Below are positions 5,015-8,623 of a stretch of DNA of 64,000 nucleotides, one piece after another. Each line of letters begins with the position of its first letter. Position 1 is the first letter of the stretch. A program made the position numbers and the translations under genes. The notes under the pieces were generated by a model. That model saw only the letters and a list, made by a program, of their open reading frames with translations. It was not told the DNA's origin and did not search any database. The stretch is from positions 124,001-188,000 of the forward strand of contig CALWLS010000001.1 in assembly GCA_944381575.1 (NCBI GenBank). Reading direction: 5' to 3'. This DNA is from an uncultured Lachnospiraceae bacterium (GTDB lineage Bacteria > Bacillota > Clostridia > Lachnospirales > Lachnospiraceae).

Positions 5015-8000
5015 ATGGTGATCAAAATGAGTAAGAAGATTAAAGTCAGAACAGCGATGCTTTTAGCCGGCGCGATCATATTACAAAATGTCATGCCTGC
5101 ACTGGGAGACATGTCCTCTGATACTCAGGGAATGGCTGTAAGCACGGGCGAGGAGGCCGGGGAAGGAGGATCTTCTGCCCTTAAAAGCGAAAACACAAGC
5201 TTTGTCAGCTTTCCAAGCCGTTTTTCAGATACGCTGTCTGAGGGATTTGAGGAACAGTATTATGTATTTTCGCTTGACAGTGTAACGGATATTTCCATAT
5301 CCGTAGAGTCTGACGACAGAGACTGCCAGTACGGCGCTGAGCTTTTAGACAGCGGCATGTCGAGGCTCAGCATCTCAGAAAGGAAGTCAGGCCAGCGTAT
5401 AACTGAAAAGTCCCTGCCGGCAGGAACATATTTCCTGAGGGTATTTCCTCTCTCTGAAAATACTTATGAGCCGTATTACGTTTCCATTCAGAAGCTGAAG
5501 CTTTCCGCCGCCGAGGTAAGGAAGACGGATTTTTCAGAGATGCATATGGTGGCAACGCTTCAGGGAAAGGATTCTCCATACCGTATGAACGGTCTGGATC
5601 CATATTATTACTATACATCTGATAGTTCTGTTTCCCCGGTAAATTATCAGTGGTATAAATCTGACGAACCGGATTACGACGGCACAGGAGTTAACGCCGG
5701 CGGCTTTTATCCCATGCCCCAGAGTTACTATGCCTCATGGCTCGGGCCGGTGGCTGAGGAAGACCAGCCAATGAGCGAGATAGATGATTACAATGGTTCA
5801 TATGACTATGCTGATTACCAGAAATATCTTCAGGAGGAGGCGATAACATACAGAGAGGAGGCCGATGCCAAGATCCATGTGCAGAACGCCATAGCTCTCC
5901 CGGCAAGGTATACAGACGTTGATGAAGAAAATGGCGAATTTATTGAATATCCCGGCTGGGAGGAGCATATAAAAGCCGGCATAATGAATTACGGCGCCCT
6001 TACCACAGGCATATACTGGGGAAATATAAGCTGTGAAGATCAGGAAAACTATTATTACAGCGGCTGGGATTATGGAGATGATAATAATTATCTGGAATAC
6101 ATACCGGGTAATGGGCGGTCTCAAAATCACGAGGTGGTCGTAGTGGGCTGGGATGACGATTATCTAAAGGAGAATTTCCGTTACCATATCAGTCAGGATA
6201 TAGCAGGCCTGAAAATGCCGTCAGGTTTTGCTACGCCCTCTAATGCGAAAAGACCGTCGGCAGACGTAGAATTTATGAAAAAGGCAGGGATCATCACGAG
6301 AAAAGCTACTCCTTCCGATGCATACAGGGATTCGGCTCGCAATGAGAAGGTGTATGAGCAGAAAAACGATGCAGCCTCAGAGATTGATATAGAAGAGCTT
6401 GAAGACGTTCTGCTTCCGGAGCGGGATGGCGCCTGGATCATACGTAATTCCTGGGGAGAAGGAAGCGGAGATAAGGGGTATTATTATGTGTCCTACTGCG
6501 ATAAGCAGCTTTTTGGAGGCGATAATACCTGGGCCTACACCGCCACGGAAACCACGGATAACTATAATAAGCTCTATGAGGTCACGAGCCTTCCGTGGAT
6601 AAGAGAGAACGCTTGTATCAGCGGAGCCGACAGTCTGATGGCTTCCACAACATTTATCGCTGATGAAGACGGCGCGGACGTGCTTAAGGCAGTCAGCTTC
6701 ACACTTTTAAATAACAACACCCAATATGAAATATCCGTAAACTTAGGTGAGGATATAGGAAAGGGCTGGATAGAGGAAAATGTATACGCCGCAGGCTCAA
6801 AGCTTTACGCGGGCTATTACACGGTCAGACTTGATAAGGCTCTCATACTGGAGCCTGGAGAGCCCTTTGAGATCATACTTAAGATCAGCGGAGATGGACA
6901 GGAAAGGCTCATTATCCCATTTATTACAAATGGCAGCAAGATAGCTGATATACCTAAGGAGGAGGACGTCTGCCGTCTCTATGATCCTGAGCCTGGCGAG
7001 TGGATTGATATAGGCCAGGGCTTTGCCGAGGATAATGGTTCCAGCAATTATTACGGTTACTTTACCACAAAGGCAATATGTAACGATGCCGCTCTTGATG
7101 AAGGCGAGACCGATCGCATCACTGTCCTTGAGATAGAACCTGAAGACTACTATCCGCTTATAGATGATCCTTATATTGATGAAGATGAAGAAGATGAGGT
7201 CAGCCAGGAGGAGCCAGCTGATGAGGAAAAGGAAAACCTTTTGACCCATGCAGCCACTCCATCCAATGCCATGAGGATATCACAAGGGGAAGAAGAAAAA
7301 GATAATACCGATGCGCCGATACTTAAAAACGGCCGTGTGCTCCAAAACAGGACTGCGGGAGAGCCTTTAGGCAGCTCCGAGCTTCCAGAGCCTGAAACCG
7401 TCCTGCCCGAATCCTTTGACCTAAGGGATGAGGGCGTGCTCACCCCGGTAAAAAATCAGGCCGCCACCAATACCTGCTGGTCCTTTGGTTCAACTGCGGC
7501 GGTGGAATCAAGCTACCTTATTAACGGCAGCAATCTGTATGATTTTAATTATTCATCAGGCATAAGCCTTGAAACCAGCCTTCCTATTACAGAGGACGGA
7601 ATGGTGATATACAGCTTCGATAAGGATCAGCCGGAAGGCCTTGAACAGGCTTTGTTTATCCCAAGGCTCCTTGCCTGGGACGACGGCCCTATTGAGGATG
7701 CGGATGGAAGCCTGAGATGGGAGCTTTCCGGAGATCTTTCATCGGTGGATATATCGGATTTCAAGGAGGAGACCGGTGGTACCGGACTTACGGGAAATGG
7801 TGAAGAGGTGCTTTTGTTTACTCCTGAGGAAAGCGGCATATTGACCGTCAGTGTGAGCTCCGCCGAGGACCCTACCAAGACGGCGTCCTGCAGAGTGCTG
7901 CTTTTGGAGGAGGATCCTGTGGATGAAATCTCGGTTTCACCGGAAAGCCTGAGACTTAAGGCGGGTGAGACACACAGGCTTGAGGTAACCATCAAGGCTC

Positions 8001-8623
8001 CGGAGGGCAGCGATCCTGTTCCGGTATTCTCCTCTGATAATCCTAATATCGCATCGGTGGATGAAAATGGTCTTGTACTCGGCGTAGACAGCGGCACGAC
8101 TCTGATCCGGGTAAGGGCCGGCGGCGAGACGGCTGTCTGCCGCGTGACGGTATGGAAGCCGGAAAGAAAAAGGGAATCAGGAAGAGATGTCGGATACCCG
8201 GGAAGCAGCAGTCCTGTGGCAGGAAGCTGGAAGCTGAATGCGGACGGAAGCTGGAGCTTTACTGCGGGAGGCAGGTCCTACAGCAATGAATGGGGATTTA
8301 TACATAATCCTTACGGCAGCGGCGGTCTGGGCGAGGCCGGATGGTTCCGCTTCGATAATGACGGCAGGATGCTCACCGGATGGTTTATGGATACCGACGG
8401 CAAATGGTATTATCTTAATCCGGTATCTGACGGAAGCCTTGGAAAGATGGTTACGGGCTGGAGATGGATACCTGACGCCTCAGGCAGGGAATACTGCTAT
8501 TATTTCCATACGGAAACCGGAGGTCCTATGGGCGCAATGGCGGCGGGAAGCATTACTCCCGACGGCTATGAGGTGGATTCCATGGGACGCTGGTGCATAA
8601 ACGGGATCCCGGCTGTAAGATAG
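5015..8623 (+). CDS. secreted C1 (papain-like) cysteine protease with permuted catalytic halves, Ig-like and cell-wall-binding repeats
   Basis: This 1202-residue exported protein contains, in order, a signal peptide (about 1-32), a PPC/Ig-like beta domain (about 60-155), the C-terminal half of a C1 peptidase (about 172-495), a lectin-like domain (about 520-690), an acidic linker (about 690-780), the N-terminal half of a C1 peptidase (about 795-850), two Ig-like domains (about 855-960 and a BIG2-like one at 963-1050), and tryptophan-rich cell-wall-binding repeats (about 1065-1202). Catalytic residues are visible as His372 (NHEVVVVGWDD), Asn478 (IIRNSWGEG), oxyanion Gln815 and nucleophile Cys821 (TNTCWSF). 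In all ordinary papain-like enzymes Gln and Cys come first, so this order is reversed. Three ATPSNA/ATPSDA motifs occur in linkers. The protein is probably anchored to the wall and active outside the cell. The start may instead be ATG 5027. Confidence 0.8.
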   Translation: MVIKMSKKIKVRTAMLLAGAIILQNVMPALGDMSSDTQGMAVSTGEEAGEGGSSALKSENTSFVSFPSRFSDTLSEGFEEQYYVFSLDSVTDISISVESDDRDCQYGAELLDSGMSRLSISERKSGQRITEKSLPAGTYFLRVFPLSENTYEPYYVSIQKLKLSAAEVRKTDFSEMHMVATLQGKDSPYRMNGLDPYYYYTSDSSVSPVNYQWYKSDEPDYDGTGVNAGGFYPMPQSYYASWLGPVAEEDQPMSEIDDYNGSYDYADYQKYLQEEAITYREEADAKIHVQNAIALPARYTDVDEENGEFIEYPGWEEHIKAGIMNYGALTTGIYWGNISCEDQENYYYSGWDYGDDNNYLEYIPGNGRSQNHEVVVVGWDDDYLKENFRYHISQDIAGLKMPSGFATPSNAKRPSADVEFMKKAGIITRKATPSDAYRDSARNEKVYEQKNDAASEIDIEELEDVLLPERDGAWIIRNSWGEGSGDKGYYYVSYCDKQLFGGDNTWAYTATETTDNYNKLYEVTSLPWIRENACISGADSLMASTTFIADEDGADVLKAVSFTLLNNNTQYEISVNLGEDIGKGWIEENVYAAGSKLYAGYYTVRLDKALILEPGEPFEIILKISGDGQERLIIPFITNGSKIADIPKEEDVCRLYDPEPGEWIDIGQGFAEDNGSSNYYGYFTTKAICNDAALDEGETDRITVLEIEPEDYYPLIDDPYIDEDEEDEVSQEEPADEEKENLLTHAATPSNAMRISQGEEEKDNTDAPILKNGRVLQNRTAGEPLGSSELPEPETVLPESFDLRDEGVLTPVKNQAATNTCWSFGSTAAVESSYLINGSNLYDFNYSSGISLETSLPITEDGMVIYSFDKDQPEGLEQALFIPRLLAWDDGPIEDADGSLRWELSGDLSSVDISDFKEETGGTGLTGNGEEVLLFTPEESGILTVSVSSAEDPTKTASCRVLLLEEDPVDEISVSPESLRLKAGETHRLEVTIKAPEGSDPVPVFSSDNPNIASVDENGLVLGVDSGTTLIRVRAGGETAVCRVTVWKPERKRESGRDVGYPGSSSPVAGSWKLNADGSWSFTAGGRSYSNEWGFIHNPYGSGGLGEAGWFRFDNDGRMLTGWFMDTDGKWYYLNPVSDGSLGKMVTGWRWIPDASGREYCYYFHTETGGPMGAMAAGSITPDGYEVDSMGRWCINGIPAVR

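Follow-up and report, generated by a model that had tools for sequence, protein, structure and literature searches.

A recurring and apparently inherited circular permutation of a Cwp84-like C1 peptidase

Introduction

Cwp84 (PDB 4CI7, 4D59), a surface protein (PMC4089489), carries a pro-segment, a C1 peptidase domain and a lectin-like domain, in that order along the chain. The peptidases closest by sequence to the protein analyzed here come from the same bacterial family as the window genome and combine a C1 domain with a lectin-like domain in the same ordinary order, namely C1 N-terminal half, C1 C-terminal half and lectin-like domain.

Circular permutation has been described in papain-like folds outside family C1. 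In the permuted NlpC/P60 enzymes (LRAT-like and YaeF/YiiX-like), the fold is papain-like and the catalytic Cys lies near the C-terminus (PMC3142127). These enzymes belong to another family and cluster, and in them the helix is permuted alone or together with the first strand, while the PPPDE and LupA deubiquitinases represent further permutations within the papain-like superfamily (PMC10318531). In that 2023 classification, cluster I, which comprises the cathepsins and their kin, is canonical and the permutations are placed in other clusters. The main text of another 2023 survey of the papain family (PMC10380794) contains no word starting with "permut", and in PMC12667903 the relevant terms occur in the reference list only. 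A first, sequence-only reading of the DNA studied here had proposed that a C1 peptidase is circularly permuted in this stretch and that no C1A enzyme with such an order is known to have been described. No family C1 case was found in the titles and abstract starts of the open-licence literature matches listed.

Results

The window analyzed is a stretch of 64,000 nucleotides from an uncultured Lachnospiraceae bacterium. It contains on its forward strand, on which all features of the window given below lie, an open reading frame of 1202 amino acids without interruption (positions 5015–8623). The order of catalytic residues noted earlier is borne out, as His372 (codon CAC, 6128–6130) and Asn478 (6446–6448) lie upstream of Gln815 and Cys821 (codon TGC, 7475–7477) in this single frame. 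The protein belongs to family C1 by the curated cut-off of Pfam PF00112 (50.7 bits, cut-off 20.7), and this is the only PF00112 match in the genome. The match consists of two stretches in inverted order, the best of which covers profile positions 1–47 at residues 797–841; it is because of the permuted order that Pfam displays these proteins as PF00112 fragments. All four catalytic residues, Gln, Cys, His and Asn, are present in the window protein. The Gln-Cys-His-Asn order typical of the family is replaced by His, Asn or Asp, Gln and Cys in all 20 proteins of this type that were found, which makes them a permuted variant of family C1 and not ordinary members. A search with NCBIfam returned one weak match (12.3 bits, cut-off 850), and Pfam revealed no NlpC/P60-type family at E ≤ 1 and no PPPDE or LupA match in the window protein.

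The chain begins with a signal-peptide-like N-terminus (residues 1–32; 5015–5110), read from the sequence as a basic start followed by a hydrophobic stretch and alike in six aligned relatives. A PPC-like beta domain (residues 60–165; 5192–5509) directly precedes the C1 C-terminal half (residues 172–500; 5528–6514), which contains the SE motif, His372 and Asn478, follows the profile of ordinary-order relatives from position 47 on and is colinear with Cwp84. Between the His and Asn strands lies a variable insert (residues 391–461; 6185–6397) with a mean identity of 34% among seven orthologues. The lectin-like domain (residues 535–690; 6617–7084) follows the C-terminal half as in Cwp84; Pfam places it between the two C1 stretches (PF18560, 45.6 bits, cut-off 27, at residues 539–631), and it is colinear with the lectin-like domain of Cwp84. 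An acidic, fast-evolving linker (residues 691–792; 7085–7390), 58 to 124 amino acids long in the 14 proteins measured, then stands where ordinary members have their pro-segment and leads to the C1 N-terminal half with Gln815 and Cys821 (residues 793–844; 7391–7546). This half is directly followed by an Ig-like domain (residues 845–968; 7547–7918). At the end of the chain, Pfam identifies a Big_2 domain (residues 968–1036; 7916–8122; PF02368, 35.2 bits, cut-off 22.8) and choline-binding-type wall-binding repeats (PF19127, 28.8 bits, cut-off 27, at residues 1113–1139), the region of which extends, as read from the sequence, over residues 1068–1202 (8216–8620).

The PPC-like and Ig-like profiles matched all 20 permuted proteins, 12 of which were themselves part of the profiles, and neither matched an ordinary-order ORF among those listed. 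Pfam itself shows no PPC match in the window protein; the best score for PF04151, 25.2 bits in G1352, lies just under the cut-off of 25.9, and G262, G1353 and G1354 also remain below it. The permuted proteins thus share a constant frame of PPC-like domain, C-terminal half, lectin-like domain, linker, N-terminal half and Ig-like domain.

To compare the permuted and ordinary orders, a profile of 387 positions was built from 45 ordinary-order relatives. The window protein matches profile positions 47–197 and 194–353, and then 3–54 further downstream. When Cwp84 (4CI7) was aligned by profile, query positions 717–761 corresponded to chain residues 68–112, 271–352 to 193–253 and 387–612 to 255–468; a further piece, 183–219 to 134–170, is too weak to count alone. 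As aligned, this pattern is that of a rotation and not of scrambling. The segments of 14 of the 20 permuted proteins were rotated by script, the start of the C-terminal half being estimated in some from partial matches, which may have brought in a few residues from upstream. Every one of the 14 rotated sequences reached a higher best-domain score against the 45-protein profile than its native order, with gains from 3.7 (G278) to 67 bits, and also beat each of five wrong-break controls, by a smallest margin of 2 bits (G278). The best rotated match spans only the peptidase part in 7 of the 14, since a large insert splits the match. The lectin-like domain has moved together with the C-terminal half. 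While the rotation of the two C1 halves proposed earlier is upheld, its limitation to the C1 domain is not, and what was permuted is best described as a whole Cwp84-type unit composed of C1 and lectin-like domains.

The first reading had also pointed to a DF dipeptide at both breaks. This is correct for the window protein and does not hold as a general rule: in the 20 permuted proteins the C-terminal half starts at a joint of the form [DN][FLY]SE, and the N-terminal half ends in LYDF, LYNY, MVNF, MVNY or a sequence unlike these. In the window DNA the six bases GATTTT are common to both joints and no longer repeat was found there, so that the DNA gives no indication of how a recombination might have taken place. 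No tandem C1-C1 intermediate of the kind suggested earlier, and no ORF with two N-terminal halves, occurs among the listed ORFs (those with an N-terminal half plus another segment) from 427 ORFs of at least 200 amino acids at 138 loci. The permutation may have arisen by duplication, with the outer halves lost afterwards.

The search for homologues with the same order, also proposed earlier, yielded 20 proteins from 19 genomes, all cut at the same loop. The window genome is a draft of 18 contigs, and the order could in principle have arisen from faulty assembly or binning of this one genome. Since the same order and the same cut are found in 18 further genomes, four of which consist of a single contig (G108, G785, G858 and G1354), such an artefact is refuted and its probability negligible. 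Judged from these sequences, the permutation looks like a real, inherited variant.

The labelled genomes with permuted proteins represent six genera in two families. Most genomes of the window's genus lack a permuted ORF; complete copies are present in 6 of 25 (G000, G005, G006, G007, G018 and G021), and another is found in E0_RM_bin32 of the GTDB collection. Apart from the window protein, these orthologues number six; they are 65–69% identical to it, and LYDFNYSSGI is invariant at the joint of the N-terminal half. The genus also holds one broken copy and one deletion remnant. The former, at L042 8332–9395 (G017), may be truly broken or may reflect faulty assembly; in it, residues 9–102 and 156–415 match separately and the rest was not found at this place. 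In the latter, at L043 7080–7564 (G019), pieces corresponding to residues 57–79, 125–236 and 1175–1202 lie within 485 bases.

Across 397 genomes of the family, a full-length profile had G278, G289 (two proteins), G108 and G262 among the matches listed, whose order was then read. A joint profile of N-terminal half and Ig-like domain, applied to the same genomes with at most eight candidates scored per genome, matched seven places in six genomes with E ≤ 1e-59 over profile positions 2–199. The remaining 129 places had E ≥ 3.5e-15 and matched within positions 4–80, that is, in the N-terminal half; those that were read had the ordinary order. In wider, overlapping samples, only the window genome appeared at E ≤ 1e-16 among 344 genomes of the order, and only the window genome matched among 299 of the phylum. 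The class sample of 361 additionally gave G785 (6e-27) and G858 (5e-29) from another family. Their E-values fall inside the gap seen in the family search, yet both proteins match over positions 7–186. Congeners with a match, whose order was likewise read, account for 5 of 6 genomes in the genus of G858 and 4 of 4 in that of G262. The viral contigs gave ten pattern matches, none of which was a relative, and the plasmid collection gave no match.

The catalytic Gln, Cys and His, the Ser-Glu pair, the helix Glu and a Lys or Arg before the catalytic Asn were found in all 20 permuted proteins, although the search patterns partly required these residues; all 20 matched at the expected place. The catalytic Asn is conserved in 18 and replaced by Asp in two (G108 and the second G289 protein), and the following residue is Trp in 13 and Tyr in seven. 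Cwp84 shares the catalytic Gln, Cys and His and, by sequence, the same two domains, and differs in having Ser where 18 of the 20 permuted members have Asn. The two permuted members with Asp, at L106 3274–6708 and L107 5414–8515, also have Tyr instead of the next Trp.

In papain, we take Lys17, Glu35, Glu50 and Lys174 to form a cluster at the domain interface. By sequence, the equivalent places hold Lys or Arg in 19, Glu in 20, Glu in 20 and Lys or Arg in 20 of the permuted proteins. No confirmation of the role of this cluster was found in the literature searched. In the corresponding check of the ordinary proteins, 10 of 45 were skipped for want of a motif match, and for 15 of the 35 that remained no place equivalent to Glu50 could be located.

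Selection was assessed in seven orthologues. The dN/dS ratios, which are rough because dS is saturated (segment means 1.4–2.2, with 10 to 21 of 21 pairs giving a dS value), were 0.054 for the N-terminal half, the lowest of ten segments, 0.11 and 0.064 for the C-terminal half, 0.089 for the lectin-like domain, 0.27 for the linker and 0.33 for the insert. Both C1 halves are under purifying selection. The replacement of Asn by Asp in 2 of 20 proteins and of Trp by Tyr in 7 of 20 would fit a non-proteolytic relic, in which the peptidase remnants are retained as a scaffold or binding module. Such a relic is nevertheless highly improbable, as none of the 20 proteins has lost Gln, Cys or His and the N-terminal half is the most constrained segment of all, and the permuted enzyme is, by its sequence, probably a working variant.

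In trees of the reordered sequences, the permuted proteins stand near ordinary relatives of the same bacterial family. A tree of 57 rows, 12 of them permuted, places 11 of these 12 in one clade and G262 outside. In a tree with 14 of the 20, for which 25 ordinary rows were picked at random after five had been set aside and L052 and L169 were added, they form two groups of seven at an unresolved fork. Both trees require two changes, as expected if several independent permutations had occurred; in the 57-row tree, built without overlapping locus copies and without ORFs that lack any of the three segments, two changes are forced by well-supported branches and a single group appears in 3% of the bootstrap trees. 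Wider sampling raises this share to 27%, and holding all permuted proteins together costs 1.70 log units and is not rejected (p-AU 0.382; 55 rows, two long rows dropped). In all 20 proteins, moreover, the cut, the PPC-like domain before it and the Ig-like domain after it are the same. This common arrangement of cut and flanking domains speaks for a single origin, and several independent permutations appear unlikely.

The modules upstream of the permuted unit vary. CHB_HEX repeats were found in G858, G1352 and G1354, and a module with 5'-nucleotidase and metallophosphatase domains in G262 and G1353; at L108 5041–9834 and L166 1637–6358, the permuted peptidase is fused behind such a module. The C-termini carry either wall-binding repeats or, as read from the sequence, a KTGD-like motif followed by a hydrophobic tail. 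At L167 2144–6721 and L168 1776–6359, the N-terminal stretch of the chain that carries the permuted C1 unit contains a HELQH motif, which we presume to be zinc-metallopeptidase-like; Pfam gave no match in this stretch of L167. Fusions and long extensions also occur in ordinary-order relatives. At L052 2854–6192, a Peptidase_S41 domain is fused to an ordinary-order C1 and lectin-like peptidase, and at L045 1–3615 (G015, from the window's genus) an ordinary-order C1 peptidase has a long N-terminal region with a DMDGT motif, presumably haloacid-dehalogenase-like.

Discussion

Three observations support the circular permutation of a C1 peptidase proposed in the first reading: the chain becomes colinear with Cwp84 and with ordinary relatives only once it is rotated, the order recurs in 20 proteins, and selection is purifying. 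Taken as a whole, the data suggest that the window protein is very probably a secreted, wall-bound, Cwp84-like C1 endopeptidase that is circularly permuted and whose two halves close in cis.

We infer from the sequences how such an enzyme may pack, act and mature and what it may cleave. The new ends are located in the loop that follows the active-site helix, and the linker connects the end of the lectin-like domain with the former N-terminus. Both halves would fold into one papain domain, to which the C-terminal side of the chain would supply Gln815 and Cys821 and the N-terminal side His372 and Asn478. The PPC-like domain stands before the new start and the Ig-like domain behind the new end, which places the enzyme in the middle of the chain, between variable upstream modules and a surface anchor. 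Its substrates may be proteins at the cell surface.

Alternatively, the N-terminal half of one molecule might complete the C-terminal half of a neighbor on the cell surface. The length of the linker and the separate domains that flank the halves would allow domain-swapped partners of this kind; however, the same linker length also permits closure in cis, and no sequence feature favors pairing in trans, so that we regard the swap as improbable and prefer closure within one chain.

In the permuted proteins, the stretch before the N-terminal half is an internal linker, standing in place of the N-terminal pro-segment of family C1, and the former pro-segment would now serve as this linker. Maturation, if it takes place, would consequently split the chain in two, with the fold keeping the parts together. 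We infer from this arrangement that the pro-segment may remain tethered and that the mature enzyme may be nicked. A more far-reaching proposal, which we put forward tentatively and consider possible rather than likely, is that a single ancient permutation founded a C1 lineage with an inhibitory pro-segment tethered at both ends as an internal linker. Activation would then yield a nicked two-chain enzyme, with the Cys on the anchor-bound chain and the His and Asn on the other, non-covalently held chain.

A natural and recurring permutation inside family C1 offers a comparable case for how a protease survives moved ends. In one of the genomes with a permuted protein, G1354, an ordinary-order relative was read as well. 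The permutation also makes it possible to ask directly if a pro-segment is able to serve as an internal linker.
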